Program-made: the position numbers and the translations under genes
Shown here: positions 16,458-35,964 of the stretch, piece after piece
Numbering within the stretch: the first letter of the stretch is position 1
How the letters are laid out: each line of letters starts with the position of its first letter
Notes under the pieces: model-generated
Databases searched by the model: none
What the model saw: only the letters and a program-made list of their open reading frames with translations
What the model was told of the DNA's origin: nothing
Origin: Ectocarpus siliculosus
Lineage: Eukaryota; Sar; Phaeophyceae; Ectocarpales; Ectocarpaceae
NCBI GenBank assembly: GCA_000310025.1
Contig: FN649727.1
Span: forward strand, 6,018,547 to 6,082,546
DNA length: 64,000 nt
Direction: 5' to 3'

Positions 16458-19400
16458 CTATTCCCCCACACACGATTTGCATCCACGGGTAAATCGGTTT
16501 TCGCCGATGCCCGCGATGTTGAACGCCAGCACTCCGAAAAAGGTCACCACTGTGCCGCCCAGCTGCGAGACGCTCATCACCTTACCAAGGACAAACAGCT
16601 CGCCCGCGAACACGAGCATTCGCTTGCAGGAGCTGCCTATGGCATGGTCGATAAGGCTGAGGCGGGCCAGAAGGTTGAACGAGGCCAGGTTACAACCGAC
16701 GACGCAGAGCGCGGCGTTCACGCCGTCCATTCGCAGCCAGCTAGTGGAGAACTCGTGGTTGTTGCTGATTCCGTCACCACCACCACTCTCGATTATTCTC
16801 AACGCACTGTCTGGACCTGGACCTGTCCTCTGTAGAAAGTCCATTCTCCTGCATATTATCCTTACCAGCATGAGTCCGACACCGACGACCGTCGCAGCTA
16901 CACTGCAGGCGAGGAGAGTCTGGTGGGGAGGAGGAACTGGGCTACCCTTGATAGCAACGTTTCGCAGGGCGCTGAAACACACAGCCGTCATGGTGAGGAC
17001 AGCCAGGGAATTTGAACCGCTGCTACCGCTGCTGCCGCCGCCTTGGTCACTCTTCCGCTCGAACACCAGAAAAAGTGTGCCTGCCACGATCGTCGTGAGC
17101 GCGGTCAATCGAAGACCGGAGTAAGTCTTGCCGAGCAGCAGGTATGACAGTACCGTAGCGGCGACAGGCTCTGTCGCCGCACTCAGGGCGTTCGTCGCAT
17201 CAACTCCGCCCACGAGGACGGCGGCGTTGGCCAGCAGCGTCTGCCCAGCGTGCAAAAGGGCCGCCAATCTGGTCTGGCGCGCGGCCGCGCATCCAACCTG
17301 ACAGTTTGCGGCCGGGGTCAAGCCTAGTCTTGGATTGAAGTTGAAGTCCAGCCCGGCGAAGAGTCCAAGTAATAGCAAGATCGCAACGCCGGTCGCTCCC
17401 TGCAAAGTTAGGAGCCCGACCGGGTCGTGAGTGTGGCTAAGGTATGCCATGCAGTACCCGCTGAAGCCCACGGCCAGAAACACCCATATCGTGAAGTTGA
17501 GCACGAGGAAGATCACGGAAGACGTGGCGTCAACACTATTAGCAACAGTAGTCGACCTCACTGGGCTCGGCAGTGTCCACTCAGATACGACGCTCAGTTC
17601 GGAATCACTGCTGGTGCACGAGCCGAGTTCCATGTCGATGCTGTCCTGCCCAACAAAACCTGCTGTTGTTGCTGCCACGAGCTTGCCGTGACATTGCCGT
17701 CCAGGAAGACGTCTTGGTGGTAGCAAGGCTAACCCTACAATAAGTAAGATGAACAGCATCACAGCGACGTAGTCATCTTTGAACAGCTTGACCGACGAGG
17801 TTCCTCCCGTGGCCTCGGCCACTGACAATCTGCTGATCGTCGGCATCGGCATTGACACACTTTCGCCGGTAGCAGTGAGCACTCCTAGCCCGGATGCAGC
17901 CCCCGAGGTCGAAATCGGCAGCCCTGCTTCACGTACGAGATCGTGATCCGCGGATTCTTCACTCTTACCAGATAGCGTGTCGGAGACTATAGTCCCGGGG
18001 CCAACCGACGGTGGTTCAGCGCGTCCACGATGGTGTGATATCAGTACTTGACTCTCCGAAACCTCCATTTCCTCTCGAATTGTTGGTCGTGCGACAGAGT
18101 ACAAGACTCGCTTCGATGCATGTGTCTTCGAGCGAGAAACGGCTGCCAGTGAAAGAACACCTGGTTTCACTGCGGTATCAACTGTCGGGCTGTTCTCAGG
18201 TACCACGCCAAGCCTCGTACTCTCGTCGGTCTCATCAGCTGACGGCAGCATGCTCAAGATAACGAGACGCTCCGCCGCTCGTGGTACCGATGATGTCTTC
18301 GCCGCCTTGATCGATATCCCAGTTGCCGTGGCCAAGGCCTTTTGGGTTTGCCGTTTGGCGTCTTGATTGTCGTTTTCCTGTTGCTCCTGCTCCTGCACGC
18401 CAACAATGTCGAAGAGCGCGTCGCGGGCCTGGCGCCGAAAGTCTTCCGAAAACGCCGACAGTCGAGCGTGAATCAAAGCGCGACGGTTTTGATCGGCGTA
18501 GGCCCTCCGCACGGTCTCCACCTGCAGATCCACGGCCTCCCGAGTGAGTGTCTCGTCGATGGCGATATAGTGTTCGGGCAGGTGCATGATGTCGACCATG
18601 AGTTCGCGAACCTCGTCGTTGCGGACCTTGCTCCCAAAGGCGCCGAAGGTGGGAACCCCCATATGGAGGCCAAGGAGAGCCCCATCAAGTCGGGTCGAGA
18701 CGATCGCACGGCAGGAGCACAAACGTCCCATGAATTCCGTCGGGTCGAGGATTTGCAGGATTTCGCCGGGGTAGTCGTGCTCCTCGATCGCTCTCTGGTG
18801 TTCCTGAAACACGTTGATGAAAACGTCCCCCCGTCTTACCACATGGCCCAGTAGCTGTTGATGCATCTCCACATTGGTCTGCGTGATCGAAGCTGGTAGG
18901 ATGAAGCAAAGCGGCTGCTGGTGCTCACCTGAAAGTTCCAAGCATACAGGAGTGGGAGAGGACATAGTTAGATCATAATGAGATCTACACGTAGCCTTTT
19001 TCGAGGATTTCGCTTGTTGGTGAGAGGGGCCTTGTTGCACTGGCAGTCTTCGACACTAAATGTCTCGTCATGTGTGTCGGTGCATCGAAGGGTCGTTCGG
19101 CCATATGAACGAGTGATGACTCGCAGGTACACAGAGTAGTGGGAAACGCAAACAAGATTCTTGACCAGCTTTGATGTTCAAGAGGCAGAATTGTCCCACG
19201 TTCAGTTCTTCCCTGGATACCATAAGTCACAACGTTGATGTATACGGCTGTTCCACACACGTGGTCCGGAACTTCGAGCAAAAGCCCTTCATTTACAAGC
19301 AGACCAACCCTGCTTGGACCATTTACAAGCAGACCAACCCTGCTTGGACTTTTCCCGCCACGTGGTACCACGAGTGGTTCCCCAATGAATCACGGGCACA

Positions 19401-22400
19401 ACCGGCGGTTCCCCAATGAACCATGTGTGTATCGCACGATGACGAACCTTCGCTCTGTTTCCAGCACGTGCCCTCCGTGTCGGTCAACGTCTCGTCACTC
19501 AGGACCGGGCCCCTGACTACGGCGATATCGCCTGGCCGTACGAGTGCCTCCCCGCGCCGCAGCATGCTGGACAGGACCCGCCTCGAGACCGCATCCCTTC
19601 CGGGCTCAAACACGGCCGTGTGGAGAAGTACATCGCTCCGTGGCTTCGCCTTGGAGCTGTGTGGGATGGAACGCAAGGTGCGACCAGCTTGGAGCAGGGT
19701 GGCGTTTTAATATCCGCAATCCTTAGGTACAACGTGTATGTGCTACGGTGCCTGGTTCCTACCGGTTCTCGGAAAGAAATCCCGGAAAAAGAATCGTTGG
19801 TGAAGCTTCGTTTCACCCCCATTGTGGTTGTGCACTGAACTTCATGCCCTGGTACGTACCTGTAGCGTCATATCCTTCGAGATTCCTGATGAACCGCATT
19901 TTTGTGTGTAATGATCGCCGTACCTGGAAGCGCTCATCATGACGATCGGTAACGTTAGACGTTCCAAGAGTGTGTTGACCTCCGCAGGAGCGTGCCTGAG
20001 CTTGGCGTTGAAGATTCCGCCATCCCCGACCACAAGGGCCTTGAACTTGTTCAACTGTTCACGGAAGGAGTGAGACAAAACAATTCGCATCACCTCGTTT
20101 ATTGGTGTCTCCGTGCTCCAAGCAAACTTTTTTGTGCTCTTCATGCGATCGTGTTGGATAGACATCTACCCTGGGCCCGCTCTGACTTGGTGGAGGGTTC
20201 GACAGCACATATTACGTAGGTTGAGATCTGGTACCATGGCGAGAATCTGCCCGTTTTAGAGGCTGTCTCAGGCGTGGCCAAGCGAGGCTGTAGACCATGC
20301 TCGCATGAACGTACAAAGGCCTTCTCACCTCGTCCAAGTAGTCAGCCGTGAAGGGAATCGAATGCGAGTTGTCGTCATCGTAAAGTTTCGCCGTGGATTG
20401 CCCTTGCACAGCGCGATTCTCGTCCCAAAGTAGGGAGTGCCAAAAACATTGGCTTGGTGGCGCGACAGAAGCAAGGAGGTGTTCCATGGACGCCGTCTGA
20501 GCCCTTTCGCCCATATTGCCTGCGAAGGGAGAGTGGGTGTTGCAGAGAACATGGCTGGGCGGTCTGTTGCATTTTCATGAATGATAACTTTATTCTTGTC
20601 TCGGCTCGGTATGCGTAGTGGCGACATAGCTGTACATTGTGCCCCTTCTTCTAGAACTAGGCATGGCTTGGCGGTGCCGTCCTGATGGTATCAGGCGTAG
20701 CACCGTGGAGAGAAACGGGTGTTCCGCCTGTAAGCGCCAACGCTGCACGGCGGAGAGCGCGGGTGTACAAGAAGTCGCCACAGCCAAGCACATGGGCACA
20801 TATTGTTCGTAGACAACCCCTTCAGAAACAGAGAGAGGATTGCCTGCCTGTGACGTCACAACGGTTGAAACTTGCCCCCACAAGTACATCAAGCTTGAGT
20901 CAGGAAAGGGGTTGCAAGCGATGAAGGAGAAGCAAGTATGTGAGCTCGACAGGTCTAAAGCAGGTGACAACCAAAGGGTTGGTGACCACGGGCACGTACG
21001 CATGGCAAGGCCGAAACTGCCAAACACTTCGTCGCTGCATACAGACGTCAACCGCCGTCTTGACTTGCGCGAGACCGACAGGATGCGTCGACGTCAAGCG
21101 TGGGATGCGGGTGATCTCGAAGCTGAGGATGGGAGAGGCTAATTTTGTTCGGCAGCATGATAAGCGAATAGAGGATTTGCGGCGGATAAACATCATAGCT
21201 GTTGTCCCATGCGCGTAGGAAGGGCGTACCCAAGTTTTACGGAGATCGTAATGCTATCGTTACGGTGCAGCAGGTGGAAGTGACGGAGGACGGCGCCGCT
21301 AGGATCTGTGATTCTGGGGGCCAAAGAAGAAATTGCGGTGTGAAGAAGGGACACACAGGCTAATTCCCAAGCATGTTCCCATGATGTAGGTGGGTCGTAT
21401 AAACAGCCGCGGCTGAAAAAGTGGAACGGCAGTCCGGGTCAAAGAATAACCAGGACCCGAATGGGAGATGCGGGTTAGATGAGGTTTCTCCGGAGCGGGA
21501 CACAGTAAACATAACCATTTGTCAGATGTTTCTGGGTAGAATGATGGCTTGTAAGCTTTACACAAGGGGGTTGGGTGCGAGAACCAAGTATCTGTGCTCC
21601 AAAAAAACGCCCGCTTCCACTGAGGGCCAAAACCACACGGCTAATGTAGGTGGGGTAGACCGAAACTGGATTGTGCCCGTTGGAATGGGACGGCATCGTC
21701 CTTGCTGATTTTGGAAGTGCCCAAGGTTTCAACAGATTTTTCCTTTATTGGGGATCGTGTAGACTATTTCTTGGTGCAATTTACTTTCGTTATGCGTGGA
21801 AACCAGCCTTATCTTATCGTGGAGGCGGCGCGTATCTTTATCGTCCTGCTTCCTGACAGTTTCTCGTTGCCGGTGACAGGTCCAGTGGGAGAACCACGAG
21901 TCGACAAAAGCTTACGTCATCGTATGCTCAACGGGGATCGTTCTGTTCTATAACAGAGCGTGAAGCAAAACATGTTCGTGCTAACACATCAATCGATGCA
22001 GTATGATTGGCGACGCGCGTGATTAGCGAAAAGGCTTGTCTATGGAGGCCGCCGAGGGAAAAATGACAAACGTACAGTATCTACTTCGATACACGAGAGA
22101 TCAACCTCCCTCGTATTTTGTCGTTTGGAACGCAACACATGATTTGGGTATTCCTTCGTATAGTCTAAATGTTGTATGCAATAACGAATACGCCGATGAA
22201 TGGCGACGTTTTGATATGGGAGAGCCTCTAGTAGGCTGGAGAACATTGACCTGGTCTGCCGACAATACTCAACGCAAATAGTTTTCGTGCACTGCCTAAT
22301 CATCGACATTGTCTTCGCACTCACCTCTGTGTACCACCCCGAAGAGCAATATGCACTCTCCCACGTCTGGTCGATCACTACCATCGTCCACAATGCCGGC

Positions 22401-22598
22401 AACTTGACCGTGAGGGTGAAGAGCTTTCTCATCACTGCCGTGCCCATGGGAATCAGTGGATTCGGCGGCGAGTTTCCCCGAAAGCTCCTTCTCGAAGCTT
22501 ACAGCTGATGATCGCGAAACCATAGCTGAAGTTGGAGTTGGGATACAACAAAGCACCAGCACGAGGACAGGGCACAGCTGCCAGCAGACGGAGGGCAT
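16458..22598 (-). CDS. diverged pyruvyl transferase-phosphate translocator fusion (probable pseudoenzyme paralogue)
   Basis: Five exons join in phase to 1091 aa: 22598-22325, 20519-20329, 20054-19924, 19656-19448, 18928-16458. The ATG at 22598 starts a signal-peptide-like segment (PVLVLVLCCIPTPTSA). A polysaccharide pyruvyl transferase-like domain covers about residues 75-400. A Ser/Thr-rich linker, one membrane helix (DDYVAVMLFILLIVG) and a triose-phosphate/PEP translocator-like domain of about ten helices follow. Compared with the plus-strand paralogue, GNMGD reads GNMGE (E96), the GGGG loop reads GDGG (D166), the STRxHG histidine is Asp (D350), and the KAMEP lysine is lost in SAATEP (residues 851-856, with one inserted residue). 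The CKRM basic pair near the C-terminus is kept. All splice sites and the long frame are intact, so it is unlikely to be a dead pseudogene. Function is unknown; regulatory or altered activity is inferred. Confidence 0.8.
19291..19350. repeat. 30-bp tandem duplication in an intron
   Basis: Two copies of a 30-bp unit starting atttacaagc lie back to back, differing at the last base. They sit in the fourth intron of the minus-strand fusion gene and look like a recent local slip. Confidence 0.95.
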
Positions 22599-23462: not shown

Positions 23463-26400
23463 ATGGTGGACGAAGGTACTCATCTGCCGGCACCTCTCCA
23501 GACTCGCCCTCCTCGTCAGCAACGCTTCCGGCCGGCGGCGTTGCTGACTGCCTTATACCTGGGCACTCTATTGTTCTTGCTCTGCGAGCATGTTGCTCAA
23601 CCAGTTTCAGCTGTGAACCTGCGATCTTCGCAAATTTCACAAGCGGCGGCGGAGGGGCCATCCGCCGAGAACGGGGCAGCAGGAAACAAGCAGTGGGTTC
23701 TCAGACGGCTCATTGTACCCGAGGAGCGCCTTCGCAACCAAAGGGTTAAGGGCACCGGCAGCAGTAGCGTATCACCGGACGTCGGCGAGTGCATCTTGCT
23801 CTTTGGAGCGTTTTGCAACGGTGAGCGACAGCGCGCACCTAAATGTACACTCAGTCATCACACACAGCAGTAGGCAGAAGGAATGCACACCTGCAATATC
23901 TTTTGAAAATTGATCTGAAACCTTTGTACGGCTTTGAAAACACCATATCGAGCACCTGCTGAGGCGCGATTGGTTCTCTCGTGGCCCGTTGTCCTGCTCG
24001 AGACGTGACAAACACCGACGCTGGGAGAGGCGCATCCGACAGTTGACTCTTCATGGGAGTGGCTTTCGTCTTACCCCCACTGCTGTACGTCCTTGGCGAT
24101 ACACTCTGTCGTGTTCGTGACATACTGAAAGAAGAATTACATATTTCAGACTGTGTAGACTGCGTAGTCTATGTATATATGAATGCGGCCGTTTCGCACC
24201 TACCTCTACTTACCTCCACTCCCTGTAGGCAACATGGGCGACGTGATCCAGCCGATGGCGATGGAGCACCTTCTCGCTTCCGTCGCCCCGGACCAGTGTT
24301 TTTGGTACGCCCACCCCGGGGTAGAGGGCGTTGACCAAGGAGACCGCATTGGAGAGTTCTTCAGCGATAACATCAGCGGTGACTCGTCGCGGTTAATCCA
24401 CCTTACACCTGACCACGCGGAAAAGGTAGAGACAACTCTTCACGTGCTGTCCTTCGCACCTGTTGTTCTTCGTAGCCTCGTGTTCTGTTGTGCTGTGAAT
24501 TTGATGCCAAAATGACTAGCCACCGCAACACCCGCGGGTGGTCTGCAGTTCGGTGAGCACCACGACACCCACCCGCAGGTTTGTGTGCTGGAGTTTAAAG
24601 AAAACATTGACAAGCAGTTCGCAGATAATAAATCGCGGGAGGCTTGTACTGACGACAATACGATACCATATAACCCTCGTACCAACCAATGCACCAGGTT
24701 AACGTGTTCAAGGCCCTCATCATCGGCGGTGGCGGAATATTTGCGGCCAAGCACGCCCCCCTTGACGTGGACGCCTTTGCGGAAAGTCTCACTCTGCCGA
24801 TCGTCATCATGGGTGTCGGGGCTAACAGGTGAATGGTGCCGGCGGCACGGCAACACACGTGTGTATTTTCACCGTGAAAACACAGACCCAGCAGCGTACG
24901 ACGAACATGATATCAAGCACGTCATGCCGTACAATTCCGAAGCAATCGTGCTTGTAGACTGACTGTTGCTGGCGATCCTGCACCTGGATGGTGTCGTCAA
25001 CTCAGCAACAAGTCATCGAAGCGGGAAAAAACAATCGGAGCGGAACAATGATCGAGTAGCGAGATGGCGCCTAAGCAGCAACTCTTACCGACGTCTGGCC
25101 ACATGTTGCCCACACACGTTTCGTTGTTTCAGTCCCAGGGCGAAGAAGTATGCCACCCTCGTTGAAAAAGCCGTTTTCGTCTCCGGGCGGGACACGGATT
25201 CGATCGATGCGTTCTCCAACCTGCTGCGGAAAAGCAAGGGCCCCGTGGTACAGCCAGAAGATGTCGCTCTGGTGAGGGATCCGGTCTTGAGTGACAAGAT
25301 GTTGACCGACACGAAGGGAACGTGCTGGAAGCAGAGCGAAGGTATGCGGCGTGTTTGATGTGTCTCCGATGGTGGTTGGGGAAGCCCATCCATGTAGTCA
25401 CCCGTGTAGTTGGACGCGGATATGGATAGGGGGTCGGGAGGGGGGGCATAAGCGCAACACACGGCGGGCGACAACGAAACATGACCGAACAACGAAATTG
25501 TGCTGTGTCGTATGTACATGCGTTTGAGGCGGAGAAGAAGCTTCACCGGTAGTTTGCGAAATAGCATTCAGCCCTGTACGCGATAAACCGGTGTTCATCT
25601 TCCCTGCCTTTTCCCCCCTTCTTGTGCGCGCATTGCTCCAGGAGAGCACGAGCAGCCGCTTTGCTTCATCTTGCCGGCCTCCAACACAGCGCCCACCATC
25701 GAAATGCACAAGCACTTGTTGGCTCGCGTCGTGAGGCCGGGGGACGTTTTCGTCAACGTGTTCCCGAAGCACCAGGACGAGATCCTCGAGCAGCACGACT
25801 ACCCCGGCGAGGTCCTGCAAATCCTCGATCCTGCGGAATTTACGCAACGGCTCTGCTCCTGCCGCGCCATAGTCTCGACCAGGTTTCACGGAGTAATCCT
25901 CGGCCTCCACATGGGGGTCCCCACGTTCGGCGCCTCCGACATGTCGTACGGGAACAAAGTCCCGGGTGTCTTGATCGACACCATGCGCCTACCCGAACAG
26001 TACCTCGTCATCAATGAGATACTCACTCGTGAGGACCTGGATCAGGAGGTCGGCATCATTAGAGGGCTGTACGCGAGTCACGGCCGTCGCACGTCCATCC
26101 ACGCCCGGCTGTCCGAGCTATCAGATGACTTCGAATCCCACGCAGAACATGTGCTCTTCCATGTCCTTGGCGTCGAGAAGCAGGAAAGCCTGAAGAAACA
26201 GGTGCAGCATCGGGCGGAAGACTTCTTTTCTGAAGCTGAGATTACAGCCTTTCTGCCGGCGGCCTCCGCGATTGGAGGCAACACCGCGTCTGAACGGCGT
26301 TCCGGCTCGAGCGTTCTGCCGAAAAATGACGGTAGCGAGGATGCGGCAGTCATCGCCGGTAGAGCCGTGGTTGTCAAGGCCACCAGTGATATCTCTCCCG

Positions 26401-28334
26401 AACTAGACACCAAGAAGGAAGAGAAGAAGAAGAAAAAGAAGTCGGAGAAGAAACCGGTAACGACTGAGGAGGCCGAGACAGAGGAGGAGAAAAAGCGAAC
26501 CGCCGCGGCGATCTCACAGGAATCTCTACCAATGATAGAGCGCGTGGGTGGGACTACGGCTGACCACGCCGCCTCTGGCACGACACGGATCGCCTTGAAA
26601 CCGTCGATCTCTCGTACGTCTGATGTTATTCAACGTTCATCGGCTGCCAAAACCGACGGCCACACTCGTGCTACCACCCCAAAGACCTCGACGTCCGCAA
26701 AGACCAAGGAGAAACTAGTCGATGTTACCGACGTGAAGGCCAAGGAGGCGACGGAGAGCGTTCCGCTCGCGGCCTTACTGCTTGCAAACAGCGGCGTTTT
26801 TCGTCGGTCCGTAGAAGAAGAGGCTGGGCCGGAAACGGACGGCTCTAGGGCGTCGGTAGGAACAGACGATCCTTCAGCCGCTGAGCCTCTGAAACCAAGC
26901 GACATGATAGTCAAGAAGGGCGTGGTTGCCGACGGGCAGCAGCAGAAGAGGAGCAGGAATGAAGGAACCGCTGCAACAACAATCAGTGTTGACGGGTACC
27001 ATCGGCGCCGGGAACCCCGAACGATGGAACGAACCGCCACGACCTCAGAAACATCCGTGCCGGACATGGAAAGCGCTACCGACAACGGTGCACCGGCAGC
27101 GGAGGGAGCGTCCACGAATGACGCGATCGGAGGCGTCCTGATCGACGACGACTACATGGCTGCCACGTTGCTGCTCGGGGTAGTTGTCGGGCTGGCCTTC
27201 TTGCCGTCCGGAGGTACCGCTCGGAAGGCGTCCCACGACGGCCTCTTCGTTGGCGGTGCCGTCGCGGAGAGCGGGCGGGGCACGGCCTCCCGCGCGCCTT
27301 GCGATGGAGACTCGCTCACAAGCGGCGGGTCTGAGCTTTGCGTGTGGCCCACGCGCTCGGCCGGTTCGGCGAGCGGGATCGCCGCCACGCCTTCCAGGAT
27401 GCTCTTCATGCTCAACTTCGCGGGGTGGGTGTCTCTCGCCATCGGCTTCAGCGGCTACGGCAAGGCTTACCTCCGCGACACGCGCGACCCCGTGGGCCTC
27501 CTCGTTCTGCAGGGTGCGGTAGGTGTGGTGGTGCTGTGCTCTCTCGGACGCGTGGGAATCCTGGATCTTAGTGCGGGCAAAGGCATGACCCCGTCCGCCG
27601 CCCGCCACGCCGGGCTGGCTGCCCTCTTGCACACCGGGCAGGCGCTTCTGACCAACTTCGCCGTGTTCTCGGGCGGGGTAGCCATGACCAACGGGCTGAA
27701 GGCCATGGAGCCGGTCGCCGCGGCCGTTTTTTCGTACTTCCTGCTCGGCAAGAAGTGCTCCGCCCCGCGCGTGGTTGCACTAGCCACGATCGTGGCGGGC
27801 ATTTCCTTGCTGACCTCCAAAGACAACAATAATACCGGCAGCAGCAGCGACAACGACTACGTCCTTGTCTCGGCGGTCTTCACTATGGCGGCCGTGTGTG
27901 TCAACGCCCTCCGGAACGTCGTGATCAAGAAGGGCGACCCAATCCCTCCACACCACTCCCTCCTCGCCTGCAGCGGGGCCGCGACGGTCGTCGGTGTCGG
28001 CCTTATGTTGCTCAGGTCTGGGCTGCTTGCCTTGGGCGATCACGACCAGGAGAACGGCCAGTCTATCAACTCGGGGCGTGATCCCGGCGCTGGCTGGTTC
28101 CGGATGGGCGGGGTGAACGCCGCCCTCTGCTTCGTCGGCTACAACCTGGCCTCGTTCAACCTTCTGGTCCGCCTCAGCCCCGTCGGACACGCCGTGGGCA
28201 ACTCCTGCAAGCGAATGCTCGTGTTCGCAACCGGCCTCCTGTTCCTGGGCGAGGTGATGACCGTTCGCCAGCTGGGCGGCACAGCGGTGGCCCTCTTCGG
28301 AGTGCTGGCGTACAACATCGCGGGCACCTGGTAA
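23463..28334 (+). CDS. polysaccharide pyruvyl transferase fused to a triose-phosphate/PEP translocator-like domain
   Basis: Five exons join in phase to 1195 aa: 23463-23820, 24229-24425, 24698-24828, 25133-25341, 25642-28334. The N-terminus has one hydrophobic segment (about residues 25-45), a signal anchor or signal peptide. The pyruvyl transferase domain (about 105-430) shows GNMGD (120-124), ALIIGGGGIF (loop at 195-198), and VSTRFHG with H381 at the expected catalytic position. A long charged linker rich in Lys and Glu runs to about 795. One helix (about 805-822, ATLLLGVVVGLAFL) precedes a ten-helix translocator domain from about 885, with GLKAMEP (K985) and GNSCKRM (K1155, R1156), hallmarks of plant TPT/PPT carriers. 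Pyruvyl transferases use PEP as donor, and PPT-type carriers move PEP. A Golgi PEP importer joined to its consumer is inferred. The whole C-terminal 897 codons sit in one exon. Confidence 0.88.
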
Positions 28335-28630
28335 TACCCCTCCGCCGCCATGGATACGTCGTGTCCGGGTAGCCAGCAAGGGGGTCGCATCATTTGGAAA
28401 GTGAGTGGCGTTGTACGTTCTAGTCACCGTCTCATCGGACTACCGTGAGACTTGGCGTGGGCGACAGCAGTCGCGTTTCACTTGGGCTGCAGCTCCTCTA
28501 GGATGGTTTTGGGCATGTAGTGGTCGTGATCGTGTGGATAGCAGCATATCCGAGCTGGCGCTCAGCGTACGTCAAATGGGATATAGATTCACCACCCGGG
28601 GCTAACTCTAGTAGGGAGGGGGGGGGGGGG
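28335..28630 (+). other. 3' flank of the plus-strand fusion gene (clean copy)
   Basis: This sequence starts at the fusion gene stop codon. It reappears in a G-rich, error-laden form at 29102-29395 on the other side of the gap, so it is best read as the true copy of a stretch assembled twice. Confidence 0.75.
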
Positions 28631-29001
28631 GGGACTCATAGTCCTGCATGCCGTAATCCTTTGACCATTGACCTCCCATCCCTACAAAGCCCGGACGGAA
28701 CACGTAGGGAGGGGGGGGGGGGGGGACCCCTAATCCTGGATTGCCTAATCCTTTAAACCTTTGCCCCCCCTCCCCACCAAACCCGGGAGGGACCCCCCCG
28801 GGTTTCCCCCGGACCGGGTCTCCCATTACCCAAGGCGAAACGCCCCGGGGGAATTTGGGGGGCCCCAGAAAGGGGGGCCGCCTCCCGCTTAAGGGGGTCG
28901 GGCTCCTGGGGTTTCTTCCCTTGGGACCGGAGAAACCCACCCATGAACTAATTTTTTTTTTGGGGGCTACCCCTTCCCAAAAAAGTTTAAACCCCTGGGA
29001 A
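28615..29001. repeat. poly-G tandem unit and low-quality contig end
   Basis: Poly-G runs alternate with a unit carrying catgccgta and cctacaaagcc. From about 28740 the sequence is a noisy version of 29560-29750, full of homopolymer changes to G or C, and it stops at the gap. This pattern is typical of a decaying read end rather than of biology. Confidence 0.7.
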
Positions 29002-29101
29002 NNNNNNNNNNNNNNNNNNNNNNNNNNNNNNNNNNNNNNNNNNNNNNNNNNNNNNNNNNNNNNNNNNNNNNNNNNNNNNNNNNNNNNNNNNNNNNNNNNN
29101 N
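29002..29101. other. assembly gap (100 N)
   Basis: Exactly 100 N, which is a placeholder size. The flanks duplicate each other, so the real gap size may be zero or negative. Confidence 1.
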
Positions 29102-29395
29102 CTCCGCCCCCATGGATACGTCGGTTCCGGGTACCCAGCAAGGGGGTGGCTTCATTTGAAAAGGGAGTGGCGTTGTACGTTTTAGTCCCCTTTTCTCGGG
29201 ACTCCCGTGAGACTGGGCGGGGGGGACAGCAGTGGCGTTTCATTTGGGGGGCAGTTCCTTTGGGATGGTTTGGGGCATGTAGTGGTGGAGATCGAGAGAA
29301 AGGCAGAATTTCGGGGAGGGCGGTGAGCGTCAAGCAAACGGAAGAGAAATTCCCCCCCCGGGGCTAACTTTAGTAGGAGGGGGGGGGGGGGGTGT
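29102..29395 (+). other. noisy second copy of 28342-28630
   Basis: The order of landmarks is the same as after the fusion gene stop: atggatacgtcg, gtggcgttgtacgtt, gacagcag, ggcatgtagtgg, ggggctaact, then poly-G. Differences are mostly substitutions to G or T. It is probably a low-quality contig start covering the same locus. Confidence 0.75.
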
Positions 29396-29486
29396 AATCA
29401 TAGTCGTGCATGCCGTAGTTGTTTGACCATGGCCCTCGCATCCCTACAAAGCCGGGATGGAGCACGTAGGGAGGGGGGGGGGGGTG
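29396..29486. repeat. tandem unit of about 90 bp with embedded poly-G
   Basis: The unit runs from a catagtcgtgcatgccgtag start through catccctacaaagccggga to a poly-G run, then begins again at about 29487. Related units occur at about 28633-28712. It adjoins the dispersed repeat. Confidence 0.8.
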
Positions 29487-29770
29487 TACTCATAGTCGTG
29501 CATGCCGTAGTCGTTAGACCATTGACCTCGCATCCCTACAAAGCCGGGACGGAGCACGCCGGGTTCTCACCGGACCAGGCTCTCACATCACCAAGCGCGA
29601 AGCGCCGTGAGGTATTTGGCGAGTCGCATGAAGGGTGAGCTGCATCCTGCTAAGGGTGTTCGGCATCTTGTGCTTACTTCCTTGCGTACGGATGACAGCT
29701 ACGTATGACTTAGTTTATTTTCTGGTGCTTACACTTCCAGAGACAGTTGTAAGCGCTGTGTAACTGCCTC
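29485..29770 (+). repeat. dispersed repeat, copy 1
   Basis: A 286-bp stretch matching 45798-46083 in reverse orientation with only a few differences. One end abuts a poly-G run in both copies; the other ends at gtaactgcctc. There is no coding capacity. The near identity points to a recent, probably non-autonomous mobile or recombined sequence. Confidence 0.9.
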
Positions 29771-34673: not shown

Positions 34674-34950
34674 CGCTCGAAGATGAGCGAGGAACACACA
34701 GCTATGTAGAGAGAGTAGAGGGCGAGCGCTTTGCTGTCTGTCGCTAGCATGGTTCCGCCGCCATCCTTGCCGACAAAGGGTCCTCGCAGAATCATAGTGG
34801 TACAGCCTGATTCCATATGTTGGTCCCCTGCGGCGTGATTATCGCGCTCGCACTGTCACCACCAGCCAGCACGCACGGACGCACACAGCACAGACAGCCG
34901 CGGCCCCTTGCTGGCACTCCTGAGAATCCCTGCTGCCAACTGCGCCAACT
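34674..34950. promoter_or_regulatory. bidirectional promoter region of RPA43 and PinX1/GNO1
   Basis: Only 277 bp separate two divergent start codons, so 5' UTRs and promoters must be compact and probably shared. No named motif was identified. Confidence 0.6.
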
Positions 34951-35350
34951 ATGCCGCCCACAGCCCCGCGGGTCGGGGACACCCAGAACCAGGCGTGGAA
35001 AAATGACAAGAGCAAGTTCGGGCTCAAGATGATGCAGAAGATGGGGTGGACCGAGGGCAAGGGCCTCGGCAAGAACGAGGATGGTGTGTCCGAGCACGTC
35101 AAGGTGTCCAAGAAGTCCAACAACCTGGGGCTAGGAGCGACGCACGACTCGTCGGGAGCCGCGGGCTGGGCGAGCGCAGCGGTGAGCTTCAACGGGGTGC
35201 TGGAGACACTCGGGAAGGCCTACGGCGGCGGTGCGGATGTCGGCGGCAAGGCGAAGACGAAGGGCGACAAGAGGACGAAGAAGAAGCTGAAGAAGGCGGA
35301 GAAGAAGAAAAAGAAGAAGCAAACGGTGAAGGATGATGAGGATGCCGCCG

Positions 35351-35385
<35 letters not shown>

Positions 35386-35964
35386 GAGGGTGGGCCTGCT
35401 ATGGCTGCGGCCCAGGCAGCGAGCTCATGTCCCTCGCGGGCGAGACGCGTACGATCCAAGGACGTCAAGGGCTTCAGCGCGGCGGAACTGCGAGCCATCC
35501 TCGGCCAAGCTGCCACCACCGCCGACCCCTCGCTCCCCTCGTACCCGGTAGTTCGGGGCGGCTACGGCGCCGAAGCAGCGGCTGCAGCAGCAACAGATCC
35601 GAAAATCTCGAAGAAAAAGTCCTCCAACAAGAAAAGCAAGGGATCCAAGTCGACGACGCTCGACGCGCCGCCGCGCCGGCCGCGCACGCGATCGATGGAC
35701 GAAACCGCCCCCCTCGCTGAACCCGCAGCCATCGTCGGCGGAAAGAGGCCGAGAGACCAACCCGTCGATCACGCAGGGGAAGGCGAAGAGGCGGAGGGAG
35801 AAGCGGCGGCAAGTAGTACCACCGCCAGCGCACCGCGCAAGTCCAAGAAGAAAAAGGGCGGAGCGAGCGAGGGGGAGGGGGAGGGATGCGAGACAGCGCC
35901 GGTCGCCGGGAGCAGCAAGGATAAGAAACGAGCGAAGAAGAGCAAGAAACACAAAGGCCGATGA
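34951..35964 (+). CDS. PinX1/GNO1-like G-patch nucleolar protein
   Basis: Single-exon gene of 337 aa. Residues about 13-90 match PinX1/Gno1: QNQAWKNDKSKFG, the G-patch MMQKMGWTEGKGLGKNEDG, HVKVSKKSNNLGLGA, then W...FNGVLETLG. In yeast and animals these proteins activate the Prp43 helicase in ribosome biogenesis and, in some lineages, restrain telomerase. The rest is low-complexity: Lys blocks (KKKLKKAEKKKKKK), a poly-Ser run from an AGC repeat at about 35352-35384, and a basic C-terminus fit for nucleolar retention. A segment KGFSAAELRAILGQ is a plausible short motif of unknown role. The family call rests on the N-terminal 90 residues; the tail is not informative. Confidence 0.88.

Follow-up and report, generated by a model that had tools for sequence, protein, structure and literature searches.

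A predicted pyruvyl transferase fused to a phosphate-translocator-type carrier in Ectocarpus siliculosus, with a possible role in lumenal glycan pyruvylation

Separate carriers normally supply the secretory lumen with donor substrates. For fission yeast, the primary paper on Pet1p and Pet2p, by Yoritsune in 2014, reportedly names both in its title as putative phosphoenolpyruvate (PEP) transporters. Pvg1p of Schizosaccharomyces pombe is a Golgi type-II enzyme and depends on Pet1p and Pet2p for PEP (PMC4872226), in keeping with the Golgi pyruvylation dependent on PEP supply that a preliminary description of the DNA analyzed here had taken as background. PEP is bound in Pvg1p by R217, R337, H339, and K361, and the acceptor by D106 (PMC4872226, PMC10435577). 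In the bacterial enzyme CsaB, R148, H308, and K328 have been probed by mutation (PMC10435577), and the phosphate site of plant-type translocators consists of K204, K362, and R363 (PMC11661312). The present analysis deals with W1, a gene in a 64,000-nucleotide stretch of Ectocarpus siliculosus DNA (the window; contig FN649727.1, positions 6,018,547 to 6,082,546, denoted G000:C2:6018547-6082546 in the genome search), in which the two kinds of protein appear to be joined in one polypeptide.

W1 is very probably a genuine fused coding sequence. It is predicted to combine a ketal-pyruvyltransferase with a KR-type organophosphate/phosphate antiporter of the triose-phosphate-translocator (TPT) family. 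Judged from sequence, it may work as a lumenal, PEP-fed pyruvyltransferase with its carrier half acting as a PEP/phosphate antiporter, a reading to which a probability of roughly 0.6 is assigned.

Gene structure and the fusion family

W1 occupies 23463-28334 on the plus strand and comprises five exons. Exon 1 (23463..23820) holds the start codon, a hydrophobic signal/anchor (residues ~25-41), and the start of the pyruvyl transferase domain. It is followed by exon 2 (24229..24425) with the NMGD motif (residues 121-124), exon 3 (24698..24828) with GGGG (residues 195-198), and the 209-nt exon 4 (25133..25341) with SGRD and R248. Exon 5 (25642..28334) contributes the C-terminal half of the pyruvyl transferase, including STRFHG (from residue 377) and K404, and continues through a linker and an extra helix into the whole TPT carrier and the stop codon. 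In detail, the transferase part of exon 5 extends over 25642..26174, to about residue 476, and the low-complexity linker over 26175..27146 (~residues 477-800), where it is the sole open forward frame. The extra hydrophobic helix (~residues 803-819) lies at 27153..27203 and the carrier domain (residues 889-1190) at 27411..28316, with KAMEP from K985 and CKRM from 1154, the latter containing K1155-R1156. All introns are GT-AG and the exons join in phase, so that the in-phase five-exon chain with GNMGD, GGGG, and STRFHG as well as KAMEP and CKRM, as first described, stands in the present model of 1195 amino acids plus stop, with all motifs present. The splice choice is not unique, with 84 open GT-AG combinations in the scanned ranges; the combination with ordinary splice sites and retained motifs was chosen. 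The fusion is independent of this choice, because the C-terminal STRFHG part of the enzyme, the linker, and the complete carrier are all encoded in exon 5 alone. Its open frame comprises 915 codons; upstream, from 24963 to 25586, the frame is interrupted by six stops. Directly after the W1 stop, within 28340-29725, a 627-base stretch recurs at 76% identity beyond an N gap (29002-29101); it shows many homopolymer differences and resembles a low-quality duplicated gap flank.

The same architecture is found elsewhere in the genome, which was searched over 189 Mb in 492 contigs; these searches list the best candidates, and the locus counts are lower bounds. The pyruvyl transferase profile (PS_pyruv_trans, PF04230) matches at least five places and the TPT profile (PF03151) at least 29 exon-level places, and at four of the five PF04230 places a TPT match stands in the same open frame. 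With the W1 enzyme domain as query, a sixth locus, W2, is added on the minus strand of the window. Fused loci thus make up five of the six pyruvyl-transferase loci found (W1, W2, C23a, C23b, and C44); these represent four clearly distinct fused sequences, since C23a and C23b are near-identical copies and recent duplicates. The one-frame fusion of both domains, as originally proposed, is therefore confirmed for W1 and recurs at four further loci; an origin of the architecture by chance or by chimeric assembly is therefore very unlikely.

W2 (16458..22598, minus strand) is an open frame of 1091 amino acids arranged head to head with W1 at a distance of 864 bp, its exons lying at 22598-22325, 20519-20329, 20054-19924, 19656-19448, and 18928-16458. 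C23a (G000:C23, ~2776000-2781000, plus) and C23b (2874800-2879800, minus) are found ~97 kb apart in opposite orientation. The sole stand-alone member found, C7 (G000:C7:2255800-2261000), encodes 486 residues and stops after the enzyme domain, and no carrier match was detected in the ~4 kb examined downstream; it may represent the ancestral, unfused state or have lost the carrier secondarily. Identity to the W1 enzyme half amounts to 56.0 (W2), 61.4 (C23a), 62.7 (C23b), 44.6 (C44), and 64.7 percent (C7), and to the W1 carrier half to 57.3 (W2), 60.5 (C23a), 60.1 (C23b), and 46.9 percent (C44). Unfused carriers of the genome match the W1 carrier weakly (E 1.2e-6, 8.1e-5, and 4.4e-4). The fused carrier is coded in one exon, and several unfused carriers are split over three or four matches. 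Phases 0, 2, and 1 are shared by introns 2-4 of all six family models, as is the exon 4 length of 209 nt; the position of intron 1 agrees in five of six, C44 being the exception. An additional intron is present in the enzyme half of C23a, C23b, and C7, near GNK in the latter. As paralogue splice sites were chosen by similarity to W1, this agreement in introns and phases is partly built in.

The linkers bear on whether each locus gives rise to one product. The W1 linker, 324 residues long, keeps its frame open, with 14 and 15 stops in the other forward frames and 8, 1, and 11 in the reverse frames, and of 5000 first-order Markov sequences simulated with its composition none was open. The W2 linker (206 residues) is likewise open, with 5 and 8 stops in the other forward frames and an open fraction of 0.0014 among 5000 simulated sequences. 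Those of C23a (60 residues) and C44 (93 residues) are too short to tell, with simulated open fractions of 0.36 and 0.087; C23a also has a second open forward frame. An internal promoter, a splice form, or proteolysis could separate enzyme and carrier, as the range of linker lengths (60-324 residues) and their poor conservation might suggest; with the linker frame open at five loci and chance openness as low as that simulated for W1 and W2, two products from one locus are considered improbable.

Domain assignment, site residues, and evolution of the two halves

Both halves of W1 are placed in their families by profile searches, the test proposed for them at the outset. The enzyme half matches PF04230 along nearly the full domain (profile 1-275 of 280, E 1.7e-18, 68 bits against a gathering score of 25.3), and the earlier assignment of a pyruvyl transferase is retained without change. 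The carrier half covers positions 5-291 of the 291 of PF03151 (E 4.3e-29, 102.2 bits against 30) and also exceeds the EamA cut-off (33.8 vs 28.2 bits); with the PUNUT and Nuc_sug_transp profiles, W1 scores below their Pfam cut-offs. For the paralogues, PF04230 scores are 80 bits for C23a (1-275), 75.6 for C7 (1-275), and 51.3 for C44 (63-275), the W2 enzyme half remaining under the gathering score with 18.4 vs 25.3 bits. PF03151 scores are 96.1 (C23a), 53.1 (C44), and 40.8 bits (W2), each in two stretches, and exon-level genome matches of C23b exceed the cut-offs of both profiles. At the level of subfamilies, W1 reaches 33 bits with the CsaB equivalog TIGR03609 (NCBIfam cut-off 213.1). By sequence, W1 thus belongs to PF04230 plus PF03151, and by NCBIfam it qualifies neither as a CsaB equivalog nor for the Tpt phosphate/PEP translocator subfamily (TIGR00817). 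The earlier family assignment of the carrier half is likewise confirmed, with a full TPT domain; calling it a PEP translocator draws on context, because the carrier lies far under the TIGR00817 cut-off. Exon by exon, none of 18 genome matches reaches this cut-off, so that a search at that level cannot discriminate.

Residues known to bind PEP and acceptor appear to be retained. D124, R248, R379, H381, and K404 of W1 are the putative counterparts, placed mostly by motif and spacing, of D106, R217, R337, H339, and K361 of Pvg1p, and the same five residues are found in C23a, C23b, C44, and the stand-alone C7. The spacing of R379-F-H381 equals that of R337-L338-H339 in Pvg1p; R-L-H is present in C23a, C23b, C44, and C7. 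In the carrier half, 5Y78 is the only solved-structure match up to E 10 (E 2.3e-6). Alignment to it assigns the phosphate triad to K985, K1155, and R1156 of W1, one offset, counted by hand, fitting all three positions, and the segment with KR scores 21.3 bits (i-Evalue 0.0012). The triad is intact in four of the five fusions. W2 deviates in both halves: its five enzyme positions read E, R, R, D, and E (R-L-D in place of R-x-H), and in the carrier K-R is retained but serine replaces K204. The W2 carrier is changed at two further translocator positions as well, those of T188 and Y339.

W2 thus has an intact frame with key residues of both halves replaced, and it is faster evolving. Its branch measures 0.67 vs 0.22 for W1 in the enzyme tree and, next to C44, 0.64 vs 0.26 in the carrier tree. 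Such joint loss would be expected if the two halves function together, but W2 is a single case. In the domain trees (six enzyme and five carrier sequences), only the C23 pair is resolved, the other supports being 48 and 71 for the enzyme and 64 for the carrier, and no branching order, single fusion event, or polarity of C7 is claimed on this account. Between W1 and C23a, the ratio of nonsynonymous to synonymous substitution rates (dN/dS) is 0.17 for the enzyme (dS 1.96) and 0.31 for the carrier (dS 1.01), values that are rough because dS is ~2 and ~1. Between C23a and C23b it is 0.65 and 0.21, respectively, on few changes; of the 32 differences in 918 residues, only 3 fall in the carrier half, so the halves evolve at unequal pace or the carrier half has been homogenised. 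For several pairs with C44, dS is infinite and dN/dS unusable. The residue losses in both halves of W2 and the enzyme-half ratio of C23a/C23b, with its few changes, are what an annotation artefact or a pseudogene pair might leave behind; in view of intact frames at five loci, a dN well under dS in both halves of W1 and C23a, and the open-frame statistics of the linkers, such an origin is scarcely credible.

Relatives were sought in contig collections of prokaryotes and viruses, starting from two short specific peptide patterns, a procedure that reaches close relatives only. With five of the six members as enzyme-half query (without C23b), none was confirmed among 45 pattern stretches of genome_contigs and 49 of viral_contigs; with three of the five fusions as carrier-half query (without W2 and C23b), none was confirmed among 69 stretches of viral_contigs and 108 of genome_contigs. 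Being confined to prokaryotes and viruses, these collections are silent on other algae. In the control genomes, PF04230 matches occur in 8 of 14 and PF03151 matches in 4 of 14, 2 of them above the cut-off.

Topology and the proposed PEP/phosphate cycle

TPT-family carriers are expected to have ten helices, and both ends of Golgi carriers are usually cytosolic. In a hydropathy scan, the N-terminal hydrophobic segment of W1 (residues 25-41) is preceded by four lysine or arginine residues within 12 positions and followed by none. The corresponding counts (before/after) at the first hydrophobic segment are 3/2 in C7, 0/1 in W2, and 1/0 in C44, so that more positive charge precedes than follows the anchor in W1 and, less so, in C7 and C44; the segment itself is strong in C7 and W2 and weaker in C44. 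An extra helix in front of the carrier is present in all five fusions (W1 803-819, W2 655-671, C23a/C23b 466-482, C44 506-522). Its lysine and arginine residues on the carrier vs the enzyme side number 2/0 in W1, 3/2 in W2, 3/1 in C23a, 3/2 in C23b, and 3/1 in C44, the bias amounting to a single residue in W2 and C23b. With an anchor, a return helix, and ten helices in the carrier, the enzyme would be lumenal and both carrier ends cytosolic. A lumenal enzyme with an inward PEP carrier receives indirect support only, from the anchor charges of W1, the extra helix, and the kept site residues.

A mechanism may be proposed on this basis. KR-type translocators swap organic phosphate for inorganic phosphate, and pyruvyl transfer from PEP releases phosphate. 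In W1, the N-terminal signal anchor would expose the enzyme domain to the secretory lumen, and the extra helix would bring the chain back to the cytosol, followed by a ten-helix carrier with both ends cytosolic. The carrier would take cytosolic PEP in and phosphate out; the enzyme would move the pyruvyl group of PEP onto a hydroxyl pair of a glycan and free phosphate. As the freed phosphate would be the counter-substrate of the carrier, donor supply and by-product removal would be coupled one to one. W1 as such a self-feeding transporter-transferase, which exchanges lumenal phosphate for PEP, uses the PEP on the spot for matrix-glycan pyruvylation, and has its import driven by the by-product, is a proposition for which the odds appear evenly balanced.

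The place of action might also be a membrane surrounding the plastid. KR-bearing TPT-type carriers serve plastids, and the genome contains at least 87 matches to chlorophyll-binding proteins, as expected of a photosynthetic eukaryote. By eye, no ASAFAP-type plastid motif is seen directly behind the hydrophobic N-terminus of W1, W2, or C44; moreover, the stand-alone C7 starts with a hydrophobic anchor and the secretory route is where glycan acceptors would be expected, so a plastid-surrounding membrane in place of the Golgi is very improbable. The chlorophyll-binding-protein matches include arrays with identical scores on G000:C92, C232, and C488, which are probably recent tandem copies.

Several observations weigh against a lumenal, PEP-fed W1. 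On the side of the enzyme, D124, R248, and K404 were located by motif and spacing only, and solved-structure searches with the enzyme half, as single sequence and as profile, returned nothing credible, Pvg1p (5AX7) not being found. As an unfused member, C7 indicates that the enzyme can do without the fusion. Regarding topology, the carriers show 9 (W1), 10 (W2, C23a, and C23b), and 8 (C44) hydrophobic segments, and the same threshold yields false segments in the enzyme domains (3 in W1, C23b, and C44, 4 in C23a, 2 in C7, and 0 in W2). MAFFT aligned the extra helix of W1 with those of W2 and C44 but placed the C23a/b helix opposite the W1 linker; the correspondence of the C23a/b helix was judged by eye. 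The linker sequence is hardly conserved among the fusions, as expected for a flexible tether. Among the gene models, that of C44 includes an intron of ~8 kb, and those of C23a/C23b leave the first exon unsettled and need an upstream exon.

The remaining points concern the carrier, whose specificity is not readable from sequence. W1 reaches 72.1 bits with TIGR00817, below the cut-off of 317.9; the 5Y78 segment locating K985 is weak alone (10.0 bits, i-Evalue 3.3), and at the position of the histidine numbered 185 in the 5Y78 alignment, W1 carries alanine (A966). In a real fusion, the carrier might move another phosphate ester, export phosphate, or act as an anchor, with PEP arriving otherwise. 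Such a role would suit the low subfamily score, the alanine at the H185 position, the divergence from unfused carriers of the genome (best E 1.2e-6), and the general need of Golgi glycosylation for phosphate export (PMC10231389), but the phosphate triad is retained in four of five fusions and PEP is the most direct reason for joining this type of carrier to a PEP-using enzyme. A function of this kind is therefore rated unlikely, though it deserves consideration beside the PEP/phosphate antiporter preferred here.

Elsewhere in the window, a G-patch domain (E 2.3e-16) is encoded by an open frame at 34924-35958 on the plus strand.

Comparison with described systems

The preliminary description knew of no enzyme with this architecture, and a literature search on the fusion and on brown algal pyruvyl transferases, with subscription papers mostly outside its range, likewise found no such fusion. 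For a red alga, pyruvyl transferases are named as agar-modifying enzymes, and the accessible text mentions no fusion there (PMC5970526). A review of pyruvylation names red and green algae, and 'brown' stands in its main text solely as the name of an author (PMC6801904). If the proposed mechanism is true, pyruvate ketals are predicted on the matrix glycans of brown algae, a group not listed in that review, and TPT-type carriers would be backed as a PEP source for pyruvylation. A lumenal PEP/phosphate cycle would become testable with a single protein, and the covalent union of donor carrier and transferase would represent a natural experiment on the need for physical coupling.

The predicted W1 protein shares features with four described systems. 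Like S. pombe Pvg1p, it would be a ketal-pyruvyltransferase with one N-terminal helix anchor that obtains PEP via Golgi carriers (PMC4872226, PMC6801904), but Pvg1p, Pet1p, and Pet2p are separate proteins, whereas W1 is one polypeptide. Paenibacillus alvei CsaB resembles it as a PEP-dependent ketal-pyruvyltransferase with R, H, and K positions matching by motif (PMC10435577); CsaB has no carrier, and W1 remains far under the cut-off of its equivalog profile (TIGR03609). With the plastid phosphate translocators (TPT/PPT/GPT, 5Y78), the carrier half has in common the TPT family, a lysine before (A/S)xEP, and KR near the C-terminus, and it differs from them in falling under the subfamily cut-off, in its position behind a transferase, and in the added helix. 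Finally, the assemblies of GlcNAc-transferases with SLC35 nucleotide-sugar carriers in the mammalian Golgi also bring a transferase and its donor carrier together (PMC6453868), in that case as separate proteins and for another donor, in contrast to the covalent W1. As transferase-carrier assemblies exist in the mammalian Golgi, the fusion may be seen as a known type of partnership made covalent.

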